Of a DNA stretch of 24,579 nucleotides, positions 5,964 through 23,212 are shown piece by piece. How positions within the stretch are numbered: the stretch's first letter is position 1; every line of letters starts with the position of its first letter. Source of the stretch: a virus; the IMG/VR virus record IMGVR_UViG_3300035195_000502, positions 1 to 24,579 of that record. The stretch is one strand, 5' to 3'. The position numbers were made by a program, and so were the translations under genes. The notes below the pieces were generated by a model, which was not told where the DNA came from, did no database searches, and saw nothing but the letters and a program-made list of their open reading frames with translations.

Positions 5964-6018
5964 GTTTATATTATTACGTTATTTTCTTGTTTTTTAACTA
6001 CCTAATGTCAGTATCTCA
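5964..6018. other. Short intergenic spacer
   Basis: This 55-base AT-rich gap lies between the 158-aa protein stop (TAG) and the next start. It is one of the largest gaps in the minus-strand block. I see an oligo-T run on the plus strand but no convincing GC-rich terminator stem. Confidence 0.4.
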
Positions 6019-6495
6019 CTAAGTACACAGTGTTCTTGTTAAAACTGAACCACTACTAGTTGTTATATTATAATAAGAGTTAACAAATGGACCTACTTTA
6101 TATTGACCATTAGCTAAAGTGTTTTCTCCACCACTATCAGAGTAAGCTGTATCACCTACTGCTATTAAAGCGCTAGAACCATCATGGTAATTAGTGTTAG
6201 GTAGATTTGTACCATATCCACAAGCTGCTTTACTTTGTGTTGGTGAAGCACCAAATGAGTACAAGCTAGCCGCGGCGGAAGCGTCGTGATCATACCCATA
6301 AAACTCACTCATTTTATCTGGGTTTGTTGATGTTGGATAACTAGAACTATTTGTATTTACAGTTCCCCAAGTACCGGAACCACCACCAGATAACAAAATA
6401 ATTTCACCATCATTGTTATATGCTGTGTAATCATCTTCGTTAAACTCTGAAAATAACCCTGACATTCTTAATAATCCACTACTTGGTACCGCCAT
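6019..6495 (-). CDS. Short tail/fibre-tip-like structural protein (158 aa)
   Basis: The N-terminus MAVPSSGLLRMSGLFSEFNE and the following KMSEFYGYDHD are wording I associate with short structural proteins next to tail fibres in marine and flavobacterial phages. The rest is rich in Gly, Ser, Thr, Asn and Tyr with little helix, as expected for an extracellular beta-structured virion protein. The stop is TAG followed at once by TGA, so the protein would gain only one residue if TAG were recoded. It starts 17 bases inside the end of the S74 fibre gene, suggesting coupled translation and perhaps joint assembly. The exact role is unknown. Confidence 0.75.
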   Translation of the reverse strand: MAVPSSGLLRMSGLFSEFNEDDYTAYNNDGEIILLSGGGSGTWGTVNTNSSSYPTSTNPDKMSEFYGYDHDASAAASLYSFGASPTQSKAACGYGTNLPNTNYHDGSSALIAVGDTAYSDSGGENTLANGQYKVGPFVNSYYNITTSSGSVLTRTLCT

Positions 6496-8170
6496 CTATT
6501 CTCTCTTTAAGTGATTCAACTTCAGCTGTTAGTTCTTTTATTGATTCTATTAATAAACCTACTATGTTACCATATGATACGGAGTAATGACCGTCTGATT
6601 CTCTTTTATTAACAACCTCTGGTATTATATCTTTTACTTCTTGAGCTATAACACCCATCATTCTTTTATCACTAGAACCTTCGTCAGTTCTAACAAATGT
6701 AACACCTCTTAGTTTATTTACTTTATCTAAAGCATCAGGGATAGTTTCAACATCACCTTTAACCCTAGCGTCAGAGTAAGCAGCAACATCATGACTAGCA
6801 TATATTGATATATTACTTACATTTCCACTAACATCTAACGTATAATCAGGGCTTGAATCATTAATACCAACTCTACCTGTTTCTGCAACAGTTAAAGTTT
6901 CCCCATTATCTCCACCCATGTAAACTCTCCATCTATCAGCATCACATCTAAGTGTTGCTTGAGTTGAATCACCCGGTTCCATCACTTGACCTGAAGTACT
7001 AGCCACGAAGTTTGGCCCAATTGAACCTGTGGAATGTATTGAGCCAGCAACTGTTATACCAGCAGATACCGTGCTTAGTTTGTAAGATCCACCATAAGAT
7101 ATATTTACCTCACCACTTGCTCCACCATATTTAATTAAGTTCTGAACTGTACCGGTGCTATTTTCTGACTGGTGGTACGTGTAAGCACCGTGATTTCGGT
7201 TAGTAAACTTCATATTACCACTACTTCCAGAATGCGTTAATCTAAACAACGATGTGTCACCAAAGTCCATATTAACATTTTGATTTATTCTAACTGTAGT
7301 TGTATCAAAAGTTTGATCAGCTGTAAAAAGGTTTGCTACATTTAACCAAGCAACTTTTTTCATACTGTTCCAAGAAGATCCAGCTCCATTTCTAAAATAC
7401 AAGTTACCATCACCCGTCGAGCTATCAGCTTCACCTATAAGTTGCCAAGCAGCGTAAGTTCCACTCCAACCTTTCATTGTCATACCACTGTACCAAGAAC
7501 CTAAGTTGCTAAAGTCATCGGTAAAGCTAAACGAAACAGCATTGTCTGTAAAGTTAGCTGGAGTAACTTCACCAGAGTTTCTAGTATCTTTAATTTTAAT
7601 CTCACTAACAATTGGGCTAGTGAAAGTTTTTACACCACCTATTGTTTGATTGCCACTAGTTATTACAGCTCCAAGAGAACTAGCTGTTGGAAGTGTTTGT
7701 GAATTTATAGTGCCATCAGAAATAGCTGCGTTTAATTGAGCTGTTGTAAATGAACCTAAAACAGCTGCGTTACCAACAGATGTGACATGCCCTGTTAAAT
7801 TTGCATTAGTAGTTACTGTTGCAGAATTACCTGAACAAGTACCAGCAGAAGTAGCGGATCCAGCGTTACCGGTTAAATGACCATTAAACGTACCGTGAAA
7901 ATCATCAGCATGTATATTTGCAAATTTAACTGTACTTGTACCTACATCATAGATAGAATCTGATCCTACATATATATCTCCATCAGCAGTAATAGCACCG
8001 CTAGAGTTGACATTAAATATAGGAACACCAGATATATCTGATACAGAAAACAGATCACCAGTTAAGCTGTCTGTTACTGAAAACAATTGCCCTTGCGTAC
8101 CTTGAATATCAAGAACAGTTCCTGTGCCATCTACTACGAGGCCTTTTTTTACTTTAAATTCGTTTGCCAT
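6479..8170 (-). CDS. Tail fibre with C-terminal peptidase S74 intramolecular chaperone
   Basis: This 563-aa fibre starts with a modular head (DIQGTQGQLFSVT at 21-33, then GDLFSVSDISGVPIFNVNSS) that is nearly the same as the N-terminus of the 2041-aa fibre. A beta-helical, Gly/Ser/Asn-rich shaft follows. The last 100 residues (about 464-563) are a chaperone-of-endosialidase domain: YSDARVK with S466/D467, ALDKVNKLRGVTFV, MMGVIAQEVKDIIPEVV and a C-terminal helix ending LTAEVESLKERI. In this family the domain folds the fibre trimer and cuts itself off before S466, using the Ser-Asp pair. It is the only fibre here with this domain. The gene has a Shine-Dalgarno-like AAAGG eight bases before its ATG, unusual for this window. 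Confidence 0.92.
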   Translation of the reverse strand: MANEFKVKKGLVVDGTGTVLDIQGTQGQLFSVTDSLTGDLFSVSDISGVPIFNVNSSGAITADGDIYVGSDSIYDVGTSTVKFANIHADDFHGTFNGHLTGNAGSATSAGTCSGNSATVTTNANLTGHVTSVGNAAVLGSFTTAQLNAAISDGTINSQTLPTASSLGAVITSGNQTIGGVKTFTSPIVSEIKIKDTRNSGEVTPANFTDNAVSFSFTDDFSNLGSWYSGMTMKGWSGTYAAWQLIGEADSSTGDGNLYFRNGAGSSWNSMKKVAWLNVANLFTADQTFDTTTVRINQNVNMDFGDTSLFRLTHSGSSGNMKFTNRNHGAYTYHQSENSTGTVQNLIKYGGASGEVNISYGGSYKLSTVSAGITVAGSIHSTGSIGPNFVASTSGQVMEPGDSTQATLRCDADRWRVYMGGDNGETLTVAETGRVGINDSSPDYTLDVSGNVSNISIYASHDVAAYSDARVKGDVETIPDALDKVNKLRGVTFVRTDEGSSDKRMMGVIAQEVKDIIPEVVNKRESDGHYSVSYGNIVGLLIESIKELTAEVESLKERIDGGTK

Positions 8171-8178
8171 AATTGTTA

Positions 8179-8183
8179 CCTTT
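8179..8183 (-). promoter_or_regulatory. Shine-Dalgarno-like site before the S74 fibre
   Basis: On the minus strand AAAGG lies eight bases upstream of the ATG at 8170. It is noted because nearly every other leader in the window lacks such a motif. It could be chance in a 27-base spacer. Confidence 0.4.
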
Positions 8184-8197
8184 CATTTTCCAGGTTA

Positions 8198-9466
8198 TTA
8201 TAAGTTAAATCTATTTTTGTATGCTTTGTAATTTGAAATAGCATCTTCTTGTGTTAATGCTTTTTGATAAACTTTCCAAACTGGTATTTCACCAGGCCAG
8301 TAAGCTGTATTCCTACCTCTGTCTCTGCCTACAGAAAAACTAGGGTTGTTAGGTAGTAAAGGAATTTCATTAACTCCACTTGATAAAGTTTGTTGAACCC
8401 CATTTATCCAAACTTTTTTATTAGTATTGTTTGAGTAACCACCAGCATAACTAAGTACTATATGGTAAAATTGATCTGCCACCATTAAAGGTGAGTTGGT
8501 AAATGTAGTGTCTTTACTATAAAAATACCAGTTCATATTATTGGAGTTCACGTCTAAAGCGCTGTATTGATGTGTAGTTGAGTTACCTATAGTAAACGGA
8601 TCTTTTCTACTACCTATACTACTTTGATTAACGTTACAAGAAAATATCATTTCTATAGTGTGAGGTTGACCTAGCCCAGACATAGGTAGTACTCCAGTAA
8701 TATGATCATCAGTTTCATCGTACGAAGGTTGTCCTGTAGAAGTAAAAGAAACGTTACCTACATCTATATTAGTTGTTTTCTTTAAATCTATTAGAGATGC
8801 TGTATCTGATCTTGTTGTACCACCTTGTAACCATACTACTGAATGTAGCTTATCTGGAACAATTGCTGTTTGTGTTACGTACATTTTAGTTTCTCCACTT
8901 CCAGTAAAAAGATAAAATGTTCCGTTACCTGTTGACCCTTCTGGTACCGTGTAGCAATGTTTTACTAACTGCCAGTCCATTGTTAAACTGTGGTTGGTAG
9001 AGGCTGAATAAGCTCCTCCCCCTACTTTACTATAATATAAATGGGGTCTAACTGATTTACCCACAAATGAAGAATCTGCTGCTTTCACCCAAGCTTGTAA
9101 AGTAATTTTACTTCCATTAGCCAAGTTGGTTGATGGTACCCCGCTCCAATTCGTAGGCCCAAAACTACCTCCAGAAACATTGTGATACAGCATTGCGTTT
9201 GTAAGTTCACCATCTGGACCTGGTATATTGACTAAAGTTTTTGTTTGTGTGGTGCTAGAATAAGTGTGATACGGTGTGTTGTTTCCGTCATAAGCTCCCC
9301 AGTTATTAAAACCAGTTTGAGTCATTGCGGATATATCAGAATCTTGTGCGTTTGTAGCAGGTTCACCCTTATAAAACCTAGTTGCAGTACCATTATCGGC
9401 TATACCATGCCCGGTGTCATATCCAAATACTAAATTGTCGTTTGTTAATTTTGGTCCTGTATACAT
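8198..9466 (-). CDS. LamG/concanavalin A-like lectin tail adhesin (422 aa)
   Basis: The N-terminus (NLVFGYDTGHGIADNGTATR, then FYKGEPATN) is shared with the 407-aa protein. Residues about 85-215 look like a carbohydrate-binding jelly roll (ITLQAWVKAADSS, then WQLVKHCYTVPEGS). A linker RSDTASLIDL at 219-228 and a STGQP turn lead into a LamG-type domain at about 266-415 (HTIEMIFSCN, FYHIVLSYAGG, KKVWINGV, FSVGRD). The end is the family signature KVYQKALTQEDAISNYKAYK. LamG domains bind glycans, so this is probably a receptor-binding fibre or accessory. It is one of three related lectin genes here and is separated by one base from the preceding one. Confidence 0.85.
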   Translation of the reverse strand: MYTGPKLTNDNLVFGYDTGHGIADNGTATRFYKGEPATNAQDSDISAMTQTGFNNWGAYDGNNTPYHTYSSTTQTKTLVNIPGPDGELTNAMLYHNVSGGSFGPTNWSGVPSTNLANGSKITLQAWVKAADSSFVGKSVRPHLYYSKVGGGAYSASTNHSLTMDWQLVKHCYTVPEGSTGNGTFYLFTGSGETKMYVTQTAIVPDKLHSVVWLQGGTTRSDTASLIDLKKTTNIDVGNVSFTSTGQPSYDETDDHITGVLPMSGLGQPHTIEMIFSCNVNQSSIGSRKDPFTIGNSTTHQYSALDVNSNNMNWYFYSKDTTFTNSPLMVADQFYHIVLSYAGGYSNNTNKKVWINGVQQTLSSGVNEIPLLPNNPSFSVGRDRGRNTAYWPGEIPVWKVYQKALTQEDAISNYKAYKNRFNL

Positions 9467-9467
9467 A

Positions 9468-10223
9468 TTATATAAATCTAGCTTTCATTTGATTAAAGTT
9501 TTCTGTTATTTCAGCGTTTGACAACGGAGTGTTGTAAGTTAAAACATAACTAAAAGAATTATCCGCGTGATAACTACTTTGAGCAGATCCCCATCCGTTA
9601 AAGTTTCTTATTTTGTAAGCTGTATTGATTGGTGATGTTGTTATCTCAGTACTAAAAGTAACTCCGTTATCTGGATTACCAACAAACGCTTTTATTTTAG
9701 CAGTATTTATATCATACCTAACACCAATCATATTCCATGAGTTTTCTTTGCATGAAGCCCAGTTAACTCCAGAGTATGTACCACCAGCACCAGTTCCACC
9801 ATAACTACTATTATTCATACTTATTACAAAATTACCATTAGTTCCATTCTGTATTGTAAGTATATCACCAGAATGACCATCCGTTACAGTGTGCCACCAG
9901 TTATTAGGTACACCTGTTGTTTTATATACCCAAAACATAACAGTGAAAGATGTATCACCACCAACAACTTTATCTCCGTTAGTTATGCTACCATATCTAA
10001 TACCAGTGTCTAAACTGCCAGAACCTGTTTCACCAGCTGTAGAAGCAAAATGCCTAACACCATATGTAGTAACATCTGTAGTGTTAGCACCTAAAGTCAT
10101 TGACTTGTTACCTACGATATCTGTTAACGCGTTTGTAGATACGTTAAAGCTTTCAGGGTTAGCAGGATCTGCACAAAAGATTAATCCTTCGGTATGTATT
10201 TTAGGCCCTACTTTTGTTCCCAT
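9468..10223 (-). CDS. LamG/concanavalin A-like tail adhesin, short form (251 aa)
   Basis: This protein is essentially a single LamG-type domain. HTEGLIFCADPANPESF opens it and replaces the GYDTG opening of its larger relatives. SFTVMFWVYKTTG, NSWNMIGVRYDI and KIKAFVGNPDNG are strands typical of the fold, and it closes with SYVLTYNTPLSNAEITENFN. It lacks the N-terminal carbohydrate-binding block and the RSDTASLIDL linker of the 422-aa and 407-aa proteins, so it is a minimal version of the same adhesin. A role in binding a surface glycan is inferred from the fold. The opening phrase is common in phage and marine bacterial LamG proteins. Confidence 0.8.
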   Translation of the reverse strand: MGTKVGPKIHTEGLIFCADPANPESFNVSTNALTDIVGNKSMTLGANTTDVTTYGVRHFASTAGETGSGSLDTGIRYGSITNGDKVVGGDTSFTVMFWVYKTTGVPNNWWHTVTDGHSGDILTIQNGTNGNFVISMNNSSYGGTGAGGTYSGVNWASCKENSWNMIGVRYDINTAKIKAFVGNPDNGVTFSTEITTSPINTAYKIRNFNGWGSAQSSYHADNSFSYVLTYNTPLSNAEITENFNQMKARFI

Positions 10224-10224
10224 G

Positions 10225-10557
10225 TTATTCTTCTATTGGATTAGTCCACTCTTCTGTTGCTAATAATTCTAATATATCTGCATGGTTATATTCAGTGTAG
10301 TCTGTGCTATACACACTCGGTCTACCATACACGCCAGCTTCGATTGTATTAGTTACTTCTTCACCTGTTTCTAAATCTTCGTAAGTTTCAGTGTAAGTTT
10401 CACTTACAACACGAACTTCATATTTAACAAATGTCTCTGACTCATCTATAGATTTCCTAAGAGAATCTACATTTGACTCATGAACTTCATTAAAGTTTAT
10501 AGTATCTATTATACTTGTTGGTATTACTAACCATCTTCTGTTTTGAAATCTACTCAT
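10225..10557 (-). CDS. Fibre-associated small protein (110 aa), function unknown
   Basis: It sits between two LamG adhesin genes, one base from the next and four bases from the previous. The sequence is beta-rich and acidic (FVKYEVRVVSETYTETYEDL, then GEEVTNTIEAGVYG) with an opening RRWLVIPTSIID. A small accessory or connector protein of the fibre complex is plausible, since such short proteins are often wedged among fibre genes in marine phages. No enzymatic motif, signal peptide or membrane segment is visible. Confidence 0.75.
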   Translation of the reverse strand: MSRFQNRRWLVIPTSIIDTINFNEVHESNVDSLRKSIDESETFVKYEVRVVSETYTETYEDLETGEEVTNTIEAGVYGRPSVYSTDYTEYNHADILELLATEEWTNPIEE

Positions 10558-10561
10558 AATT

Positions 10562-11785
10562 TTATATATTAAATCTGTTTTTAAGTGATTTGTAATTTTG
10601 TGTTATTTCTGACGCTGTTAATGCTTTACTATATAATCTTGCAACTGGTACATGTCCATTGAAATACCTACTGTAACCTCCGAATTCATATCTACCAATG
10701 TACCTTGCAAAAAAAGCAGCCTTTGCTGCTGTCCAAGCAAAACCAACGTGATTACCACCTTCAGCAACACCATTTACATAAAACTGCATAGTTGTACCAT
10801 TTACTTGTACAAAAGCTATATGATACCAAGTGTTACTAGCAAACACAGTGTCACCCATCTTCCAAACATGAGAGCCTCTATCCCAAACTTGTAATCTACT
10901 TTGATGCAAAGCAAGCCAACCAGCATTATGTACGTCTTCTTCGCATCCGTTAAAATGTTGTAGTGTAGAAGCTGAATCACTGTTAAACACGTATTCTGCG
11001 GTCCAACCATTACTAGCCGCGTTTGCAACACTAGAAATTTCCACGTCAGAACCAAGGTCTACGTAATCACTACTCCCGTCCATATCAGGCTGCCCAGTTG
11101 AATCAAAAGACATATATGATAAATCTATATCTCTAGTTCTTTTTAAATCTATTAAACTAGCCGTATCTGATCTTGTACCTGATATAAATGGACTAGCTTC
11201 AGTTTCTCTTTCCACTTGATAATCTCTGTAGTAAAAGTAATCATTTAAACCGCTAACACCTGTAGTATTGTTATATATAAACCACGCATGAACGTGACTT
11301 CCTCCACTTTTAACCATAGTACTTGCAAAGTGACCATCTTGTCTGTTAGCGTTAATACTGCTACCACCATTAGTTGTGTAATTTCTGTTTATGTAATGTA
11401 CTCTGGTACCACCACCGCTTCCATCAAAAGGCATATAATAACCTTTATCACGCATGTTACCCCAGTCAAACTCAGCAGAGTGACTGTAAATAACACCTGA
11501 GTCATGAGTAGTGTAAGTCCATTGTAAAATTCTAAAATTATTACCTCTATTACTTATAGTAACTTTTTTCCATCGTGGCCCTTTTTCAGGAGCATCTGCA
11601 ACAGTAACAACATTACCATAACCACCTGAATTATGACCAGCGGCAACACCATTTACTTGTAAGTTAGTAGTTGGTTTACCCTTAAAAAATCTTGTAGACA
11701 AGCCTGGATCTGCTACGCCATAACCAGTGTCATATCCGACCACTAAACCGTCTCTTACTATATTTGCTCCTCTTGCTATTCCCAT
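10562..11785 (-). CDS. LamG/concanavalin A-like lectin tail adhesin (407 aa)
   Basis: This has the same architecture as the 422-aa protein. The opening is DGLVVGYDTGYGVADPGLST then RFFKGKPTTN. A central beta domain (about 60-195) differs in sequence from that of the 422-aa protein and includes a His-containing surface (SHVHAWFIYN). The linker RSDTASLIDL lies at 205-214, followed by a STGQP turn and a LamG domain at about 240-400 (WTAEYVFNSD, TWYHIAFVQVNG, MQFYVNGV, RYIGRYEFGG). It ends ARLYSKALTASEITQNYKSL. Conserved ends with a diverged middle suggest exchange of the receptor-specific part. It begins with a TAATG overlap on the giant fibre gene, so the two may be translated and assembled together. 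Confidence 0.85.
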   Translation of the reverse strand: MGIARGANIVRDGLVVGYDTGYGVADPGLSTRFFKGKPTTNLQVNGVAAGHNSGGYGNVVTVADAPEKGPRWKKVTISNRGNNFRILQWTYTTHDSGVIYSHSAEFDWGNMRDKGYYMPFDGSGGGTRVHYINRNYTTNGGSSINANRQDGHFASTMVKSGGSHVHAWFIYNNTTGVSGLNDYFYYRDYQVERETEASPFISGTRSDTASLIDLKRTRDIDLSYMSFDSTGQPDMDGSSDYVDLGSDVEISSVANAASNGWTAEYVFNSDSASTLQHFNGCEEDVHNAGWLALHQSRLQVWDRGSHVWKMGDTVFASNTWYHIAFVQVNGTTMQFYVNGVAEGGNHVGFAWTAAKAAFFARYIGRYEFGGYSRYFNGHVPVARLYSKALTASEITQNYKSLKNRFNI

Positions 11786-14700
11786 TATATTGCTCTTGTT
11801 AAGGCTTTAATTGTCCAAGTACTAGACGTGGTGGTTGCTCTTAGTCTCATATTGGTTCCTGATATATCTACGCTTAATGTTACATCTGATGTGTCACCTA
11901 AGTCTACTGTTGATGTTTCTGCGAACTCAACTAAAGGAGTTGACGCGCCGTTATGACAAGCATATACAATACCTGCTCTGACGTTAGTTCCATTTTTAAT
12001 AACAAAGTCAAAGAAAGCAGCTGTGTAAGTACCGTGAACTACACTGGCAACAGTTGTAGTAGTAGTAGCAGAAGTTACCGTTGCTGTTTCTATATAAGGC
12101 CTACTTGTTATATTACCCCAAGCAACAGCGTTTGCTGTAGTTGCTGTGGCTGCGTTACCCGTACACGATCCTGAAGATCCAGTTGTGTTTTGATTCCACG
12201 TTGGCACGGTACCAGTCAAACCGCTATATGCAACATTTGTAGCAGTAGCAGCGTTACCTGATATGTTTGTTTGATCACCAGTATTTGTACCTGATAAATT
12301 ACCTATATCAGTAAGATCTTGCGCTGACAAACTTCCTGTTCCAGTTATGTAGTTTCCAGCAGCTTGGTAACTTCCAGCAGCTTGAGCACCTAACTCTGAT
12401 AAAGTAGGTTTATGGCCTTCGTGATAAATCTCAGAGGTTAAATGGTGAATAGTGTTATGTTCTTCACTAAAAGCGCTTATATTACTTACAGTTGGAGAAT
12501 CATAAAAAACAGTTGTTGCTCCTCCAGAAGTTGGGTTAGCACTTTGAATACCATGACCGTATGATTTTACGTTCATCTTAAATTGACCATAACTTTTTAC
12601 CTCAGCATAAAGATCTACGTAATAAGTGTCTTGACTTGAATGATCCCAACCAGCATCTACAGGTGTTCCTAATACAAATCTAAAATGATTACAATAAGGT
12701 CCACTAGCTTCTTTTAAGTAAAGCTTTATCATGTTAGCTTGGGTGTTAGCGCCACCGTAGTCACCCATTATAGCAAATCTCAAATTAGCTGATTCATAGC
12801 TTTCAGCTGTAACATTTATCTCTAGGTTTTGCCAGTTACCATCCCAATGAGCTGGACAACCGTATAACCTACCAACATGATATCTTTTAGCTTGAGTAGC
12901 TGAAGCGTTAAGACCAGAGTAAGTGCGAAAATCTTCCGCGTGATCAATACGAGCTAAAGTAAAACCGTTTAACTGTGTAGAGTTTGTAGCTGTTGTAGCT
13001 GTAGCAGCATTACCAGTACATGAACCTGAACTACCTGATACAGATGTTACGTTTGAGTTCAACATACCAGCGTTATCAGTAAAAGCTAATGTTTTCCAAG
13101 CTTGAGTAGTATAAGCGGTAGAGTTAGAAAATTTTCTATAGTATAAATTTCCATTACTACTAAAACCTAATTGACTATTGTAATCACCAGTATGTCTATT
13201 TACAGTTAGTATAGAGTTAGAGTTATCTGCTGCTGCAAACAAGCCTGATACAGTACTACCTAATGCTCCAGTATATATTAAGTTATTAGTACCTGGGTGT
13301 GTTGATATACCACCACCATCTGTAAGCTTAGCTGCAGATCCTGCCGCACCTGAAACAGATGTTTGTGCTACGTTCTCTATATAGTTACTAACGTGAATTG
13401 TACCAGCATTTTCTGCTGACCAGTCTATAATTTGATTACCAGAAGGTATTGTTGTGTTACCTGCGTGATGTACTGTATTACCATTTATCTTTGCTTCATT
13501 TGGTAACACTTGAAAATCAGGAGTTCCACTCATTAAACTACCTGAAACATCAATTCTTAAATTATCTGGACTACCTTCGGTATAGCCAATACCGTAACCT
13601 GGATTACCTGCATTGTATTGCCATATAGGTAATATTGAAGAGCCATGACCTGTTCCGTATAGTCCACCAGTAATAAATCTACCTGTACTACCACCTATTG
13701 GAGCAAAGGCTGACGCATGTTGACCATCTAATAAATCAGCATCTAATCCTGAGCTAGCACCATCGTTACCGCTATCCCAAATTTTTCTCCAACCTGAGTA
13801 TTCATCATTATTCCATCCGGTTTGATAATGTAAACCTCCAGTATGAGGAGCATATAGTTTAAATGTTGCATTTGGCAACTGCCAAGCCAAAACACTACCA
13901 TAAGTATATGAACCAGTAGGTGTATTAGAATTACCTGTTGCTGCATGGTTGTTGATTTGGAATAAACCAGAGGTATTTGTATTTCCAGTTCCAGTTGTAA
14001 ATATAGTGTCCCAATCTCCCGCTGCTGCTACACCTTTATACTTTAAAAATCTAGCATCTGATTCAGTTTCTGTAAAATATCTACTGTCTAAATCTGTAGA
14101 AGATGCTGTTAAATATGAACCAGCAGCTTGTGCTCCTAAAGTAGATAAAGATGGTAGATTTCCTGAGTGGTATATTTCGTAAGAAGCTGCACCCATTGAC
14201 CAACCACCAACTGATAGTTTGTTTGTGCCTCCATCTAAACCAAAGTAACATGCAAAATCACCACCGACATGAAATGTCATAAAAGCATCATTACCACTTC
14301 CGTTATTGAAAATTTCTATTGCTCCTAAAGACCCAGTAGATGTCGCTATAGTATCATGATTGTTTGTATCACAACCCCTAAATTCTATTCTATCGCTCGC
14401 GGTGTCTGCAACATCACTTCTTATGTATTTTGATTGTGTAGAGCTTGATGTTAAGTAACTTGGATCAGAGCTTGGTACCCAACTAGGTGTTGTGTCAGCA
14501 CTTGTAACGCTAGCAGGTATACCTTCTATCTTAGACCAGTTAGCGTATGGTTGGTTATTGGAATGACTATCATTGTATGTTGCGCTATCTGTAGTTACAA
14601 ACTCAACAGTAAAAGGATTAGTTATCATTTCAGCGGACGACGTTGAATGTCCAGCCATGTAGTTTCTTACAACAACTTGAGGATAACCCCACGTTGTATC

Positions 14701-17700
14701 AACTTCACCAACAGCCACGTATTGTTTTTGAGCAGTTGTATTTGCGCCAAATCTAACAGTTAAATCTCTGTTATCGCTATCCATTAACGCTATTACAGAA
14801 GTATTGTACCAACTAGCATTTGAATCACTATAGGAATAACCACCAACTTGTATAGACTGCATTCTATCAGTATTATACTCGTATATATCTATAATAAAAG
14901 ACTGCATGGAATTTGCTTGGTAGTGGGGTATTGTAATACGTAATCTACCAGTTGTGGTTCCAGCACCACCAGTTAAAATTCCACCCTTAACCATTGGCAT
15001 ATAGAAACCTCCACTACCTGACTGGTAAATATGTTTATTTAAAATATACTCAGGTAACCTATCGTTATTTAACGTTCCAGATGTTATTTCAGAAGCAGCG
15101 TGATTGTGAGAAGTGGCGGCAGCTCCTATTTCACCTAACGTCCACGACACATTCGCGCCTCCATTAAATGTTTTACCTGTACTACCTATAGTTAAGGTTC
15201 TAGCTGTTGTAAGCGTATCAGCATTAGGGTGATAACTGTCATGGAAAATTCTATCAGTATAGCTTGTACCGTCGCCTATATAGAGGTTTCCGGTATTATT
15301 CATCAACCATTTTTCATTAGTGCTATTCCAAGAGGTAGCGCCTGTGTTACCGTGAGCTATCATGATTGGCCCTGTTCTTTGGAAACCGTAAACCTGAAGC
15401 TTAGCAGAAGAAGTTGATGCTATTTCACCACCAAGATTTAATTGAGTACCCTGTGTTTCTGTATCTTTTCTCAAGTACCTAGTATCGTGGTTATGTGAAG
15501 ATGCTGCGGCTCCTAGTGAAGATAATGTTTGGTCACCTGTGTTGGTACCAGATAAGTTTGCTGCAGAAATATTACCATTAGTTTCTAATGTAGTTCCTGA
15601 ATTAAAATTCGTTGTAGGGTTTTTTGTAAAGTAAGTGTCACTTGTAGTTTGATCTATATTCCAATCACCCACCCAGTCTATACCACTACCATAAAATTCA
15701 GCACCATGCACTTTATGTACTTGAACAGTTGCATACACCCACGTTGAGTTTGTTTCACCAATAGCAATACATCTTCTTTCACTAGTGCCATCGTTTCTTC
15801 TACCAAAATAAACTGGTTTATCTAAAGCACCTATAACTTGAACATTTACGTTGTGCCATTGAGTAGAACTAGTATTACCACTACCGCCACTGTTCCAGTT
15901 GTGACCACCAATTATAAGTTTTGTTGCTCCTTTAGATGAATACTCGTATATGTCTATTTCCATATACATCATATCGTAGTTAGATAACGTACCAGGTAAG
16001 TCTATAACTATTTGACCTGTTGTAGTACTGTTACCACTCCATAAAGCATTTTGACCTGGATATGCTATTTTAGGATAATTATCATCACCTACTCCTAAAT
16101 GACCATGCACTACAGCTTTATCCGTTAAGGCGTTTCCAAGTAATGTGTTGCCATTTACATTTAAATTTCCAGTTATTGTACCACCAGCTAAAGGAAGCTT
16201 AGTAGCAATACTGTTCGTAACTGTTGTACTAAAACTAGCATCATCACCTAACGCTGCAGCTAATTCGTTTAATGTATTTAATGTACCAGGTGCTGAGTCA
16301 ACTAAATTTGATACAGCTGTGCCAACAAAAGCAGTTGTTGCTAATTGAGTTGTGCTTGTTCCAGCAGACGCTGTAGGCGCAGCAGGTGTACCTGTGAATG
16401 TTGGACTTGCTTTTGGAGCTAAACCACTTAAATCTTGATCACCAGTATTTGCAGTCGCAAGCGCAGCTATATCCACACCATCGACTGTACCAGATAAAGT
16501 TATATTACCAGAAGCATCGATACCAGCTTTTTCTGTGTTACCAGCGTAAAATTTAAAACCACCGGCACCAGAACCACTAGATTGAAAAATAACATCATTT
16601 GTTGATTGGCTTACTTGAATGTATAACCCTTGAAAAGTACTAGAATCTGTATAGTGTAAAAAGTTTGCGATAGACCCTGCAGTGTCTCTAAATACACTAA
16701 GATTTCTACTTGTTGGAGCAGTACCTATACCAAGTCTTCCATCTATCTGTGTGCCACCTGAAAAAACCACATCACCAGCTTGTAAGTAACCATCTACAAC
16801 AGTGCTTGATCCAGTTGATTTTACAATTCTAACACCCTTGTATTTACCACCGCTAGACGAGTTGTTTTGTTGTTGGCCAATTCGCATAACTTTATCGTTA
16901 TAACCGCTACCAACTGTTTCTAAATTAAAATGAAAAGATTGTGTCCAATCATCACCACCAGTACCACCTTGGAATACCCATCTGTTAGAAGCGTTTCTAA
17001 ACCAAGTATAACCACTATGATCGTTTAAATCAATACTATAAGTGTCGTTAGTATTATACAAGTGACCAGCCATGTGTATATTTGCTGAAGCATTTATGTA
17101 ATCAGAAAATTGCTTAACACCGGCTATTATTTGGTTACCTGATGTTTGAACCAAAGCGTTTAGATTAGTCGCTCCTGTACCACCTTCAGCCACAGCTAGT
17201 GCGGTTCCTAATGTTAACGCGCCAGATATATCAGCATTACCGTTTATGTCTAAAGATGTAGCTTCTAGTTCGCCATTTACAAAAAACTTACCGCTTATAA
17301 AACTACTAGTTCCGTCTCCACTAAATTTAGCAAATTCAGTTTTACCGGTTTTATTATATAAGTGTAAAGTACCAGCAGAGCTACTATCGTTGTTAATCCA
17401 TATCTTAAATTCTTCCCAAGCCGTGACCATGTGTGTGTTAGCACCACCAAATGTAATGTGATCTTCAGCATCTGACCATATATTTAATTTCGATCTAAAC
17501 GTTGTAGACGTAGCTGTTGTTTCGTTTAAACCATAATCACCTCTTCTGTGTGGATATATAGATATCGAACCGTCACCTATTACTAAATCATCATTAGCGT
17601 ATTCACCACTATTATTACCACCATCAGTAAATGAACCTATTTTTATTTGACTACCAGCAGTTGGCATGATTAAATTACTATCAATAGTAGTAACACCGTC

Positions 17701-17910
17701 TAAAGTTATAGAACCTGACGAATTAACATTAAATATAGGTATACCTGATATGTCTGATACTGAGAATAAATCTCCAGACAAACCATTTGTAACGGAAAAC
17801 AACTGTCCTTGAGTTCCTTGTACATCAAAGACAGTTTCGCCAACAGCACTGTGACTGTCTACAGTAAGATTTCCGGAGGTTTCAATTCCGGTAAAAAACT
17901 TTTGATTCAT
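11785..17910 (-). CDS. Giant modular tail fibre (2041 aa)
   Basis: This is the largest gene in the window, a fibre made of repeated modules. Residues about 29-70 carry DVQGTQGQLFSVT and DLFSVSDISGIPIFNVNSS, shared with the S74 fibre. A tail-fibre repeat PTFTGTPAAPTAS then TTQLATTAFV lies near 504-534. SHNHDTRYL (about 804) and SHNHAASEI (about 937) are His-x-His motifs of the kind that can hold metal ions along T4-type fibres. Three globular-looking blocks (about 604-765, 951-1118, 1649-1817) interrupt the shaft; the first two share a TG..I.IP....DIYEY..GG pattern. LDADLLDGQHASAF near 1400 and repeated GNAATATTA and LGAQAAGSY units are further shaft modules. It has no S74 domain and ends TWTIKALTRAI. 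It is probably the main host-binding fibre. Confidence 0.9.
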   Translation of the reverse strand: MNQKFFTGIETSGNLTVDSHSAVGETVFDVQGTQGQLFSVTNGLSGDLFSVSDISGIPIFNVNSSGSITLDGVTTIDSNLIMPTAGSQIKIGSFTDGGNNSGEYANDDLVIGDGSISIYPHRRGDYGLNETTATSTTFRSKLNIWSDAEDHITFGGANTHMVTAWEEFKIWINNDSSSAGTLHLYNKTGKTEFAKFSGDGTSSFISGKFFVNGELEATSLDINGNADISGALTLGTALAVAEGGTGATNLNALVQTSGNQIIAGVKQFSDYINASANIHMAGHLYNTNDTYSIDLNDHSGYTWFRNASNRWVFQGGTGGDDWTQSFHFNLETVGSGYNDKVMRIGQQQNNSSSGGKYKGVRIVKSTGSSTVVDGYLQAGDVVFSGGTQIDGRLGIGTAPTSRNLSVFRDTAGSIANFLHYTDSSTFQGLYIQVSQSTNDVIFQSSGSGAGGFKFYAGNTEKAGIDASGNITLSGTVDGVDIAALATANTGDQDLSGLAPKASPTFTGTPAAPTASAGTSTTQLATTAFVGTAVSNLVDSAPGTLNTLNELAAALGDDASFSTTVTNSIATKLPLAGGTITGNLNVNGNTLLGNALTDKAVVHGHLGVGDDNYPKIAYPGQNALWSGNSTTTGQIVIDLPGTLSNYDMMYMEIDIYEYSSKGATKLIIGGHNWNSGGSGNTSSTQWHNVNVQVIGALDKPVYFGRRNDGTSERRCIAIGETNSTWVYATVQVHKVHGAEFYGSGIDWVGDWNIDQTTSDTYFTKNPTTNFNSGTTLETNGNISAANLSGTNTGDQTLSSLGAAASSHNHDTRYLRKDTETQGTQLNLGGEIASTSSAKLQVYGFQRTGPIMIAHGNTGATSWNSTNEKWLMNNTGNLYIGDGTSYTDRIFHDSYHPNADTLTTARTLTIGSTGKTFNGGANVSWTLGEIGAAATSHNHAASEITSGTLNNDRLPEYILNKHIYQSGSGGFYMPMVKGGILTGGAGTTTGRLRITIPHYQANSMQSFIIDIYEYNTDRMQSIQVGGYSYSDSNASWYNTSVIALMDSDNRDLTVRFGANTTAQKQYVAVGEVDTTWGYPQVVVRNYMAGHSTSSAEMITNPFTVEFVTTDSATYNDSHSNNQPYANWSKIEGIPASVTSADTTPSWVPSSDPSYLTSSSTQSKYIRSDVADTASDRIEFRGCDTNNHDTIATSTGSLGAIEIFNNGSGNDAFMTFHVGGDFACYFGLDGGTNKLSVGGWSMGAASYEIYHSGNLPSLSTLGAQAAGSYLTASSTDLDSRYFTETESDARFLKYKGVAAAGDWDTIFTTGTGNTNTSGLFQINNHAATGNSNTPTGSYTYGSVLAWQLPNATFKLYAPHTGGLHYQTGWNNDEYSGWRKIWDSGNDGASSGLDADLLDGQHASAFAPIGGSTGRFITGGLYGTGHGSSILPIWQYNAGNPGYGIGYTEGSPDNLRIDVSGSLMSGTPDFQVLPNEAKINGNTVHHAGNTTIPSGNQIIDWSAENAGTIHVSNYIENVAQTSVSGAAGSAAKLTDGGGISTHPGTNNLIYTGALGSTVSGLFAAADNSNSILTVNRHTGDYNSQLGFSSNGNLYYRKFSNSTAYTTQAWKTLAFTDNAGMLNSNVTSVSGSSGSCTGNAATATTATNSTQLNGFTLARIDHAEDFRTYSGLNASATQAKRYHVGRLYGCPAHWDGNWQNLEINVTAESYESANLRFAIMGDYGGANTQANMIKLYLKEASGPYCNHFRFVLGTPVDAGWDHSSQDTYYVDLYAEVKSYGQFKMNVKSYGHGIQSANPTSGGATTVFYDSPTVSNISAFSEEHNTIHHLTSEIYHEGHKPTLSELGAQAAGSYQAAGNYITGTGSLSAQDLTDIGNLSGTNTGDQTNISGNAATATNVAYSGLTGTVPTWNQNTTGSSGSCTGNAATATTANAVAWGNITSRPYIETATVTSATTTTTVASVVHGTYTAAFFDFVIKNGTNVRAGIVYACHNGASTPLVEFAETSTVDLGDTSDVTLSVDISGTNMRLRATTTSSTWTIKALTRAI

Positions 17911-17935: not shown

Positions 17936-19639
17936 TTATGCGTAAACCGCCGTTTTAGCCGTAGCACCTCTAGTTGAAGATATAATAACTTCGATGTCAT
18001 TATCAGGTACAACATTAAAAGATATTCTTATTGTTGACGTACTTGCAGCTCCAGCAAAAGTTTTTCTTTCAATAAGACCTATAACTGTTTCTTTAGTTGA
18101 TGAGTCAAACATTTCTACTAAAACATCTTCAGTACCTAAATCGTGTACTATAGCAGCTTTTTTACCTGATACAAAACTAGAGTTAGATACGTCTATTGTT
18201 GAGTGTACTGATCTAGCAGCTAACGTGTCAGGAGTTAATACCTTAGAAGCTTCAACACCAGCTATTGCTTCGGTAGCATTTGCTAGTTTAGTAACACCAA
18301 GAGTACTAGCATCAGCTGTTGGCAGTGTTCTTGTAGCGTGAGCTGTAATAACACCATCAGTCATTGTTAATGTGTCAATAACATCTACACCTGAAGTATC
18401 AATATCAGTGTCAGTACCTATTTGCGTATTATATGTACCAGAAGCTTGTTTATTACCTAATTGTGTTTGAATATTAGATGTTACACCATCTAAATAGTCA
18501 AACTCAGTTGATGTTACACCTGTAGCTCTTAAATCTTTAGCGTAGTTTAAGTCGTTATGATCACCAGTAAAACCATCTATTTTATTTATTTCAGCAGGAG
18601 TTGCTGATATTGTTCCACCAGCAGCGCTTGCTAAAAGAGCAACATGACCAGATAAATTTGGTAGTGTTATTGTTTTATCACTAGTAGTTGCATTTGCAGC
18701 TGTAAGTTTCACCTCATGGTCATCAGCACTAGTACCTTCAAACTGTATTGTGTTGTTTTCTACAACTTGTACAGTTTCATTTTGTACTGTTTGTGTTCCA
18801 GAAACTATTAAGTTACCAGGAATAGTGAATGTATCAGAAGCATCACCAATTGTACCAGCACCGCCAAAACTAGCATTTAAAGCTGTTTTAACGTTTGCAG
18901 TGTCTGTTGGTGTTGCATTTGCAGTTATATTATCTAATTTGGTTTTTAAGATATTTGTAAAGTCGTTAGCTGTTTGAGAAGCTACTGAAAAATTTAACTT
19001 TCCAGCACCAACCCCACCGTCAGTGTAAGTTACACTAACACCACTTTCAGTACCACCAGTTACCATACCACCAACGATATCTTGAACCTCTTCGTTCGTT
19101 AGTTGATGTGTATCAGTCCAAGGTACGTTTATAACACCTTTACCATTACTATCAACTTGCAAGCCGTATGTTCTACCATTTACAGACGTAGGATCAGCGG
19201 CGGCATTTACTGCTTGTACTGTAGAGCTAAATAGCTTTATTGTACCAGCACCCGTAGCACTTGCTGCGCTTGGAGCAGAACCAGTAATAGTTATTTCAGC
19301 ATCACTAGCTCGTGACACTGTTACGGTTCCAGCACCTGAGAACTTTATGTCATCAGTAGTATTTGATCCAGTTGTTGGAGTACCTGTTAATCTTAATAGT
19401 ATACCAGAAGAATCTACAACAGATTGTGAGAATACCGTATTGTCATCACTAACATCGGTAGATAGCGTTTTAAACCCTGTGTTACCAGTCTCTGCGCTAT
19501 AGTACTTTAATTTGTGATCACCGGAATCGTAGTAAAACGCACCGGCTGCAGCGGTAGGAGCAGTGCCCGTAACGTGCATTTTAACATTTTTTAATTCCTG
19601 TCCACTTAAGTCCAGGTCATGGAGAAATTTAATTGCCAT
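17936..19639 (-). CDS. Tail fibre protein (567 aa), marine-phage type
   Basis: The N-terminus MAIKFLHDLDLSGQELKNVK and AAGAFYYDSGDHKLKYY are typical of fibre proteins that attach to the virion. HQLTNEEVQDIVGGMV followed by GVSVTYTDGG is a widespread marine-phage fibre motif. The shaft contains SGTQTVQNETVQVVENNTIQ, TPAEINKIDGFTG and TEFDYLDGVTSNIQTQLGNK, again common fibre repeats. The C-terminus (from about 475) is a compact beta domain (KKAAIVHDLGTEDVLVEMFD, then IRISFNVVPDN) that may bind the next component. The leader is a run of AAAC units with no Shine-Dalgarno. It is transcribed just before the giant fibre and probably forms a proximal fibre or adaptor. Confidence 0.88.
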   Translation of the reverse strand: MAIKFLHDLDLSGQELKNVKMHVTGTAPTAAAGAFYYDSGDHKLKYYSAETGNTGFKTLSTDVSDDNTVFSQSVVDSSGILLRLTGTPTTGSNTTDDIKFSGAGTVTVSRASDAEITITGSAPSAASATGAGTIKLFSSTVQAVNAAADPTSVNGRTYGLQVDSNGKGVINVPWTDTHQLTNEEVQDIVGGMVTGGTESGVSVTYTDGGVGAGKLNFSVASQTANDFTNILKTKLDNITANATPTDTANVKTALNASFGGAGTIGDASDTFTIPGNLIVSGTQTVQNETVQVVENNTIQFEGTSADDHEVKLTAANATTSDKTITLPNLSGHVALLASAAGGTISATPAEINKIDGFTGDHNDLNYAKDLRATGVTSTEFDYLDGVTSNIQTQLGNKQASGTYNTQIGTDTDIDTSGVDVIDTLTMTDGVITAHATRTLPTADASTLGVTKLANATEAIAGVEASKVLTPDTLAARSVHSTIDVSNSSFVSGKKAAIVHDLGTEDVLVEMFDSSTKETVIGLIERKTFAGAASTSTIRISFNVVPDNDIEVIISSTRGATAKTAVYA

Positions 19640-21406: not shown

Positions 21407-21660
21407 TCAACTATAACTACATCACCATTTTTAATTACATAAAAAACTTTATCGTCAAACTCTATAGAATGACCAGCATGCTTATCATACCAAACAATAT
21501 CTTCTTTGTTTATACCTACAACTTGCTCGCCAATACTTATAACCTTACCTTTTAAGTACCTAATGTCAGTATTCTGCAACTCTGTCATTACAAACCCTGA
21601 TTTAGATTTAGGTTTTTCTTTTATTTTATCTACAACTATATAATAATTAACTGCTTGCAT
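21403..21660 (-). CDS. groES: GroES-type co-chaperonin
   Basis: This 85-residue Cpn10 caps the GroEL ring and forms the folding chamber. VNYYIVVDKIKEKPKSKSGF gives the first strand and the mobile loop; the loop tip is G22-F-V-M-T, in place of E. coli GIVLT. LKGKVISIG at 37-44 matches the TRGEVLAVG strand, EDIVWYDKHAGHSI matches the VGDIVIF region, and KVFYVIKNGDVVIVE is the closing strand pair. It is about 12 residues shorter than E. coli GroES. Gene order is groEL then groES, the reverse of the usual bacterial operon, and the two overlap by 14 bases. T4 gp31 is a precedent for a phage co-chaperonin acting in capsid assembly. Confidence 0.88.
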   Translation of the reverse strand: MQAVNYYIVVDKIKEKPKSKSGFVMTELQNTDIRYLKGKVISIGEQVVGINKEDIVWYDKHAGHSIEFDDKVFYVIKNGDVVIVE

Positions 21661-23212
21661 TGTTCACTCTTCTATTACTTATTATACAATCTGCAGACAC
21701 TATAGTCTTTACTACACTCACTGCATGTTTGAGCGCCGTTTTTGTAACCAAAACCGGATCTATTATACCATTTTTAATCATATTTACTTCTTCACCAGTT
21801 ATAACATCTATACCATAACCATCTTTTGAAGGTATATGAGGTGTTATGCCAGCATTATCAAGTATTGTTCTAAACGGTGATATAATAGCTTTACTTAATA
21901 TCAACTCTCCATCACTACCTTCAACTATTGTTGTTGCAGCATTTAGCAGAGCAATCCCACCACCAGGTACGATACCTTCTTGCAAAGCTGCTTTAGTAGC
22001 GTATATAGCGTCTTCTACTCTATCTTTTTTTTCTTTTAACTCAACTTGTGAGTTTGCACCTACTCTAACAATACCTACATTACCTGATAATATAGCTAAA
22101 CGTTCTTGTAGTTTCTTTTTCATGAAAGGATCTTTTTGTTTTTCTATAGTTTTTTTAACTATATTTATTCTATCCTTAAATTGTGCTTCTGACTTGTCTA
22201 CTGTTAGTATTGTGTTTTTGTTATCTGTAACACACTTAACTGCTTCACCTAAGAAGCTAGTGTCAACAAGATCAAAATCATCACCTAAACTTTCATTTAT
22301 CAACTTAGCACCTGTAACAATAGCTAAGTCCTCCATTGTATCTTCTTTTGTTGGTCCAAAACCTGGAGAATCTATTATGTTTAGCTTTATGTTACCTTTT
22401 ACTTTATTAGCTAACAAGGCTGATTTAGGTACTTCTTCGACCTCACCTACTATAAGTAGTGATCTTTTCTTTTTAATAACATGTTCTAGTATAGGTTGTA
22501 TACTTCTTATGCTTTGTATTGGCGTCACAGCTAATAGTACATAAGGATTATCTAATTCAGCAACCTCTCTACCTTTGTCAGTTATTAAGTAATTCGATGT
22601 TAGTGGACATTTTAATTGTACTCCATCTACTACATCAGCATAAGTTTTATCTGTTTGTGACTCTTCTAACAGTACTACACTGTCTTTACCCACTCTATTA
22701 TATGCTTCAGATATAATTTTACCTAAAACCTTATCGTTATTACAACTAATCGTGCTAACGTGTTCTAGCATTTTACCAGATACATCTATCTTTATTTGGT
22801 CTAAATAATCATTAACTTTACTTAAACCAGCATCAATACCTGCTTTTATATCTCTTATGTTATCTTTACCTTGATATTTTTCAATTTCACTTAACAGCGA
22901 GTAAGCAAGGACGGTTGCCGTAGTGGTACCGTCTCCCGCTTCTTTCACTGTGTTTCTAGCAGCTTCTTTGATAAGTGTCGCGCCTATATTCTCAACCGGA
23001 TCATATAAGACTACAGATTCTGCAACTGTAACTCCGTCTTTTGTAATTACCGGTTTTCCGAGGGCATCCTCGTATATTACGCACTTACCAGAAGCGCCAA
23101 GGGTAGATTGAACTGCGTTCGCTAGCTGCTCAACTCCCAACATTATTTTACTCTTAGCATTACTGCCGAAAGTCAAATCTTTTACAATTTCACTTGGTTG
23201 ATTGTATTCCAT
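21647..23212 (-). CDS. groEL: GroEL-type chaperonin
   Basis: This ATP-driven 60-kDa chaperonin has 521 residues, with all three domains present. ATP-site motifs are intact: LGASGKCV at 39-45, TKDGVTV at 57-63, GDGTTTAT at 93-100 (D94 corresponds to E. coli D87) and RVEDAIYATKAALQEG at 398-413 (D401 corresponds to the catalytic D398), followed by GGG. The apical domain (about 195-385) includes QLKCPLTSNYLI and IQPILEHVI, where some substrate-binding hydrophobics differ from E. coli. The C-terminus stops soon after the last helix (DCIISNRRVNNASS) and lacks the Gly-Gly-Met tail, which accounts for the shorter length. The leader has pentamer repeats and no Shine-Dalgarno. Probable clients are the capsid or fibre proteins of this block. 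Confidence 0.95.
   Translation of the reverse strand: MEYNQPSEIVKDLTFGSNAKSKIMLGVEQLANAVQSTLGASGKCVIYEDALGKPVITKDGVTVAESVVLYDPVENIGATLIKEAARNTVKEAGDGTTTATVLAYSLLSEIEKYQGKDNIRDIKAGIDAGLSKVNDYLDQIKIDVSGKMLEHVSTISCNNDKVLGKIISEAYNRVGKDSVVLLEESQTDKTYADVVDGVQLKCPLTSNYLITDKGREVAELDNPYVLLAVTPIQSIRSIQPILEHVIKKKRSLLIVGEVEEVPKSALLANKVKGNIKLNIIDSPGFGPTKEDTMEDLAIVTGAKLINESLGDDFDLVDTSFLGEAVKCVTDNKNTILTVDKSEAQFKDRINIVKKTIEKQKDPFMKKKLQERLAILSGNVGIVRVGANSQVELKEKKDRVEDAIYATKAALQEGIVPGGGIALLNAATTIVEGSDGELILSKAIISPFRTILDNAGITPHIPSKDGYGIDVITGEEVNMIKNGIIDPVLVTKTALKHAVSVVKTIVSADCIISNRRVNNASS

Follow-up and report, generated by a model that had tools for sequence, protein, structure and literature searches.

Is a stretch of residues shared near the N-termini of two fibre proteins of one virus the part that fixes both of them to the virion? 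The question is raised by IMG/VR virus record IMGVR_UViG_3300035195_000502, analysed over its whole length of 24,579 bases (the window). Its minus strand encodes a fibre of 563 amino acids (aa) of what is called here the MANEF class, ending in a Peptidase_S74 chaperone (6479..8170; called from the open reading frame (ORF), Pfam and the PHROG tail fibre families), and a fibre of 2041 aa without S74 (11785..17910; called from the ORF, Pfam and PHROG). The shared segment occupies residues 19-63 of the former (7982..8116, minus strand), as delimited by sequence comparison and a profile, and residues 27-71 of the latter (17698..17832, minus strand), where DNA matches and a tree support the sequence comparison. 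The first-pass annotation, made from the letters alone, had suggested that it is a head by which both fibres may dock at the same virion site. The reading preferred here, and held to be quite probable, is that the segment is a movable shaft piece which does not fix a protein to the virion by itself, and that the window encodes two different co-resident fibres with interchangeable C-terminal modules. The segment would consist of about 45 residues forming short beta strands that repeat every 12 residues or so, reused along many phage fibre shafts, and the two fibres would belong to one conserved cassette, each with its own tail, a segment, a variable shaft and one of two C-terminal modules; both proteins are presumably present in virions.

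The likeness between the two fibres is real. The motifs GTQGQLFSV, LFSVSDISG and IFNVNSS are found in both (window 8000-8101 and 17716-17817), and the conserved stretch, at 45 residues, is slightly longer than first described. Over 40 residues the two copies share 85% of their amino acids and 74% of their nucleotides, and a 41-residue query made from the 2041-aa copy retrieves the 563-aa copy at E 2.9e-20 in a search of the record, which is far above chance; the same query finds no third copy in the record at E <= 0.001. Two features had been overlooked. The extreme N-termini that precede the segment differ, with 18 residues in the 563-aa protein and 26 in the 2041-aa protein, and the 2041-aa protein has a conserved C-terminal domain of its own, for which the name TIP is coined here (residues 1937-2041; 11788..12102, minus strand). 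The profile of the segment had 0 matches among PDB sequences at E <= 10. In PHROG, one of the two 41-residue copies had a single weak match (E 0.37); the other copy had no match, nor did a piece of 235 residues from the N-terminal part of the 2041-aa protein.

Relatives were gathered with three baits, namely the 2041-aa protein, which gave 15 loci, the 563-aa protein, which gave 66, and the segment profile alone, whose scan yielded 78 loci from the best 80 of at least 575 related stretches; the loci are referred to by L numbers. A scan of bacterial and archaeal genomes led from 250 pattern matches to 2 loci. The collections searched may omit records very close to the window. The segment profile was run over all stop-to-stop frames of at least 40 residues in the gathered loci, and the 143 segment-bearing ORFs were reduced to 101 by dropping those 95% identical to another, leaving 119 segment copies. 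A copy within 80 residues of the first methionine was classed as N-terminal, and one beyond position 110 as internal.

If the segment were a docking head, it would be expected near the N-terminus, and the copies are not confined to that end: 63 are N-terminal, 51 are internal and 5 are unclear. Most internal copies (39 of the 51) lie in ORFs with a complete start, and 34 of these 39 lie past residue 300; the ORFs of the remaining 12 are truncated 5'. The farthest are found at residue 3318 of 3841 (L125), 2789 of 2942 (L150) and 2525 of 2680 (L156). In the phage collection the segment is found at E <= 0.01 only in S-SKS1, the sole cultured phage in which it was found, and in one uncultured 735-kb phage, with two records each. 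The S-SKS1 copy spans residues 1496-1539 of 1728, close to the C-terminal end of what is annotated as a baseplate wedge subunit. Two copies each are present in 18 of the 101 non-redundant ORFs. In these double-segment fibres (L024, L033, L041, L043, L046, L052, L143, L152 and others) the first copy follows the N-terminal tail and the second comes several hundred residues on, often a few hundred residues ahead of S74, as if fibres had been stacked.

A second expectation of a docking head is that counterparts at the equivalent place in related virions retain it. L040, L043 and L047 share the gene order of the window, in which a 2041-type fibre is followed by genes of about 400 aa and of 110 or 111 aa, two further genes and a MANEF fibre. 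The 2041-type fibres of L043 and L047 begin with the same extreme N-terminus as that of L040, MAQKFLNGI, and have no segment. Among 32 non-redundant, TIP-ending ORFs of the 2041 type with complete ends, the segment is present in 11 and absent in 21; a MANEF-class gene lies within 12 kb downstream of 27 of the 32, and 7 of these 27 carry the segment, near the N-terminus in 5 of the 7. On the MANEF side, the segment is present in 50 of 61 distinct N-termini and absent from 11; ten of these 11 belong to the KNG subtype, and the last, L155, has a different tail. Among KNG tails only 1 of 11 is followed by a segment. Thus, both classes include tails that no segment follows, and there are segments that neither tail precedes.

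The first-pass annotation also pointed to the shared stretch as a place for recombination, and part of that idea stands. When the 563-aa protein is compared with 30 MANEF-S74 relatives, the median identity is 0.79 for the tail and 0.76 for the segment, falls to 0.21-0.24 for three parts of the body, and is 0.43 for the S74 region; fibre bodies do change after the segment across the family. The part that does not stand is exchange between the two genes of the window, of which none was seen. A recent duplication or gene conversion between them, with the segment as a live crossover point, might be proposed from the family-wide mosaicism after the segment and from the DNA itself, where both copies lie inside a direct repeat of 146 nucleotides (nt) at 7975-8120 and 17691-17836 that is 73% identical. 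This explanation is highly improbable and largely refuted. The same codon is used at only 16 of the 34 positions with the same residue, and the longest exact run is 14 nt, which we infer to be a poor substrate for homologous exchange. In all 30 within-locus pairs, with 118 copies compared, both members are closer in DNA to a copy in another contig than to each other; the best of more than 100 other copies is an easy bar, and the margins are mostly large.

The copies also group by position. On a tree of 112 copies, the MANEF N-terminal copies require 8 changes against 36.7 when shuffled, and the internal copies 11 against 37.1, with 0 of 500 shuffles as low in either case. The 563-aa copy of the window pairs with the copy of a mini-fibre from L039, described below (100/80, starred), and the 2041-aa copy pairs with an internal one, at residue 389 of an L005 fibre (support 87/96, not starred); the top five DNA matches of the 2041-aa copy are all internal copies of other fibres. 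Because copies group by position and find closer matches in other contigs, the two window copies seem to represent old lineages, each specific to its position.

If the segment is not the anchor, the short N-terminal tails that precede it are better candidates for attachment. That of the 563-aa fibre, residues 1-18 (8117..8170, minus strand), reads MANEFKVKKGLVVDGTGT, and similar tails occur with the segment (the KKG subtype, with KKG at residues 8-10) and without it (KNG). That of the 2041-aa fibre, residues 1-26 (17833..17910, minus strand), begins with MNQKFFTGIETSGN and resembles the MAQKFLNGI tails rather than the MANEF tail. The two tails, MANEFKVKKGLVVDG and MNQKFFTGIETSGN, are dissimilar. 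Just upstream of the 2041-aa gene lies an ORF for a protein of 567 aa (17936..19639, minus strand) with no Pfam match at E <= 1 and no PHROG match at E <= 0.01; its N-terminal tail, MAIKFLHDLDLSG, is similar to the 2041-aa one. Comparing the three window proteins pairwise over their first 16 residues, in an anchored way, gives scores of 12 (567/2041), -5 (567/563) and -9 (2041/563). Across loci, the tails of genes just upstream of a 2041-type fibre (n=13 distinct, several of which plainly belong to other genes) resemble 2041-type tails (n=28) with z 5.0, reached in 0 of 500 permutations, and MANEF tails (n=28) show no significant likeness to either of the other two sets (71 and 51 of 500 permutations as high). 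A docking peptide common to any two proteins here, if there is one, would be that of the 567-aa and 2041-aa proteins, which is a lead and not a demonstration.

Taken at its strongest, the idea of a shared docking head holds that both fibres attach by the segment to one virion site and there compete, mix or alternate. It is favoured by the position of the segment near the N-terminus of both proteins, by the near identity of the copies, and by how regularly the segment follows the MANEF tail. It is opposed by the many internal and doubled copies, by the same-locus 2041 counterparts that have the same kind of tail and no segment, by the S-SKS1 copy near a C-terminus, and by the unlike extreme tails of the two window proteins, and is judged very improbable. 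Competition between the fibres and the formation of hetero-fibres lose their support with it, because both presuppose a docking head. That the two are alternative fibres is unlikely for another reason, as both classes stand side by side in 27 of the 32 sampled cases, for which the MANEF protein was partly the bait.

Several observations weigh against the shaft-piece reading and in favour of a closer bond between tail and segment, at least in the MANEF class. All 44 sampled tails of the KKG subtype, to which the 563-aa fibre of the window itself belongs, carry the segment. A natural mini-fibre of 160 aa (L039:3367-3849, L040:10001-10483, and also in L042) consists of a MANEF tail, the segment and S74 only, which can likewise be put to the credit of a docking head; with its predicted S74 serine at position 76, self-cleavage would leave a tail-plus-segment piece of about 75 residues, which suggests a cap or base for another part. 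Because of this co-occurrence and of the mini-fibre, a single base may consist of tail and segment together in the MANEF subtype of the window. The idea is not transferable to the 2041-aa fibre, since its counterparts do without the segment. Three further reservations concern the data. Sampling started from the segment, the 563-aa protein or the 2041-aa protein and retained the nearest loci, and the proportions therefore describe the sample and not frequencies in nature. The tree is built from 120 columns, with many forks open and its bootstrap unsettled. Modelled structurally, residues 1-75 of the shorter fibre have strands at 39-44, 50-55 and 60-62, and the model is a weak and monomeric one (predicted local distance difference test (pLDDT) 72.7, predicted TM-score (pTM) 0.44), so that the role of the segment in the shaft can only be proposed.

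The two fibres differ most clearly at their C-terminal ends. That S74 is present only in the shorter fibre was rightly seen at first pass: Peptidase_S74 (PF13884) matches residues 466-520 of the 563-aa protein at E 2.7e-14 and 53.6 bits, above the cut-off of 22, and the 2041-aa protein has no such match. The intramolecular chaperone is predicted to extend from a cleavage site at Ser466 to residue 563 (6482..6775, minus strand; Pfam and the dyad S466/K471). The lysine five residues after the serine is in place, and a pattern of S[DE]x[RK]xK is found in 70 of 81 distinct S74 starts across loci. The 563-aa fibre would trimerise and fold through this chaperone, which should then cut itself off before Ser466 and leave a fibre of 465 residues. 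Its S74 domain has nothing unusual among its kind.

At E <= 1 no Pfam family is matched by the 2041-aa protein over its whole length, with nothing there to indicate the baseplate-binding N-terminal domain of gp9, or by its TIP domain taken separately. From the last 105 residues and 48 relatives a profile of 49 domains was built, 14 of which match gpW weakly (best E 0.0056). Against PDB sequences at E <= 10 the profile finds only two matches, at E 1.6 and 8.4, and no gp9. The fold is more telling. An AlphaFold2 model of TIP has eight strands (pLDDT 93.8), and the top PDB chain in Foldseek is T4 gp9 at E 1.6e-3, with no chain at E <= 0.001. When the model was aligned with VIA-align to residues 170-281 of T4 gp9, 104 residues were superposed with Z 13.1, a root-mean-square deviation of 2.0 and 10% identity. 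The next matches are a baseplate chain of Klebsiella phage KP1 (Z 10.7) and the Kp9 fibre gp42 (9.2), followed by the high-numbered ends of two tailspikes, residues 628-745 of vB_ApiP_P1 (Z 9.1) and residues 671-770 of Fri1 gp49 (Z 8.3). With E <= 0.001 as the limit, TIP matches 97 predicted viral proteins in BFVD, of which some bear the name tail fibre. As modelled, TIP has the beta-sandwich fold of the T4 gp9 C-terminal domain. This permanent domain would probably set the register of the 2041-aa fibre and trimerise that end. A guess that the 2041-aa fibre is defective, or dependent on the shorter one, for want of S74 was dropped once the TIP domain was found.

The gp9 fold raises one more possibility, that of one two-part fibre in which the 563-aa piece, matured by S74, has its base in a coaxial socket formed by the gp9-like tip of the 2041-aa protein. 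According to passages of PMC3004832, the C-terminal domain of gp9 is where the long tail fibres of T4 are attached, in a coaxial manner, and TIP shares the fold of that domain; in addition, most TIP-ending genes have a MANEF-class gene downstream, as counted above. Gene neighbourhood is weak evidence here since the loci were partly baited with the MANEF protein, a TIP-like fold also ends the tailspike chains just named, and some MANEF-class proteins themselves end in TIP (L061, L070, L073). The arrangement is accordingly considered improbable, and the same holds for its more specific form, in which the 563-aa protein is an exchangeable distal piece that plugs by tail and segment into the tip of a proximal 2041-aa fibre. 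Were it true, a change of host would be possible by swapping the distal gene alone.

The preferred reading, two co-resident fibres built from movable pieces, draws further on the distribution of tails and ends in 122 non-redundant complete ORFs with the segment, S74 or TIP. The MANEF tail is joined to S74 in 40 ORFs and to TIP in 3, the L061, L070 and L073 proteins just mentioned. The MPNWKK tail is joined to TIP in 9 ORFs and to S74 in 3 (L095, L099, L121), the MxQKF tail to TIP in 5 and to S74 in 1 (as MAQKF, L003), and the MAIxFL tail to TIP in 7 and to S74 in 1 (L004). The remaining 53 ORFs have another tail (42) or another end (11). The shaft is shared just as widely: pieces of the 2041-aa shaft, at 40% identity or more over at least 60 residues, recur in 13 ORFs that end in S74, 6 that end in TIP and 11 that are cut or of another kind, with redundant copies included, and residues 1646-1840 are 71% identical to a TIP-ending fibre of L005 and 72% to an S74-ending one of L004. 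It is clear that modules have been shuffled across the family and that the S74 and TIP endings have been swapped among relatives.

Between the two fibres lie four genes for products of 407, 110, 251 and 422 aa (8198..11785, minus strand), with counterparts of like size, start and order in L040, L043 and L047. The product of the 407-aa gene is a concanavalin A-like (Laminin_G_3) protein by Pfam. The 407-aa and 422-aa genes have repeats in common (90 and 35 nt, 72-74%) as well as a PHROG match, and the 251-aa product resembles theirs by eye only. Elsewhere in the window, the 16-mer ATACTGACATTAGGTA occurs at exactly two sites, 5999-6014 and 21557-21572 (both minus strand), inside 36-nt repeats in the gaps upstream of minus-strand genes. 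It could be a phage promoter element; none was found in the 162 fetched loci, and at least two matches with up to 3 mismatches appear in 15 of 100 shuffles.

With regard to its source, the relatives of its terminase, together with its portal (phrog_6547) and GroEL (phrog_5725) genes, suggest that the window is part of a podovirus, with Bacteroidota as the presumed host. Its terminase shares 62.9% identity with the one encoded by Podoviridae sp. ctfjg026 (MW202828, Manatee Spring) and 44.5% with its counterparts in Flavobacterium elemo phages, and Cellulophaga phages also match. It is in the terminase that the window is alike to these podoviruses; it differs from them in the segment, for which the phage collection gave only the S-SKS1 and 735-kb phage matches described above. 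The GroEL gene lies at 21647-23212 (minus strand), and MW202828 also has one annotated, adjoining a chaperonin 10-kd gene.

When the N-terminal part of a fibre is conserved, it is easily mistaken for the anchor, and here the anchor candidates are instead the 18-26 residues that precede the segment. A recognisable segment, and a gp9-fold domain that is absent from Pfam and trades places with S74, can aid in reading the host-recognition genes of phages known only from metagenomes. A search of the open-access literature, with subscription journals mostly outside its coverage, returned no paper for the segment, tail and TIP sequence pieces, and neither the segment nor the TIP module was found there in print.

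Compared with known systems, the C-terminal domain of the 563-aa fibre is alike to the endosialidase-type chaperones of K1F endosialidase, T5 pb1, the phi29 and GA-1 neck appendages and MYRF. Its spacing of five between serine and lysine equals that of the dyads reported in the relevant passages for T5 pb1 (S1264/K1269; PMC4690869) and MYRF (S578/K583; PMC3742443), and it differs from T5, where R1250 and D1239 are described in those passages, in having no Arg or Asp at the corresponding offsets from the serine. TIP has its fold in common with the C-terminal domain of T4 gp9 and with parts of Acinetobacter phage tailspikes, and differs in standing at the end of a 2041-aa fibre, in having only 10% identity to gp9, with no gp9 found among PDB sequences by the profile, and in the lack of a Pfam match for the window's copy. 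The fibre pair as a whole is ordinary, and modular in kind. Domain mosaicism has been described for phage receptor-binding proteins in general (PMC10684548), and, as far as the consulted part of that account goes, the fibres of the window are alike to it in their conserved N-terminus, variable body and conserved C-terminal module, and in modules common to otherwise unrelated proteins. They are unlike it in having a segment of 45 residues that is found at several positions and sometimes appears a second time within a single chain.

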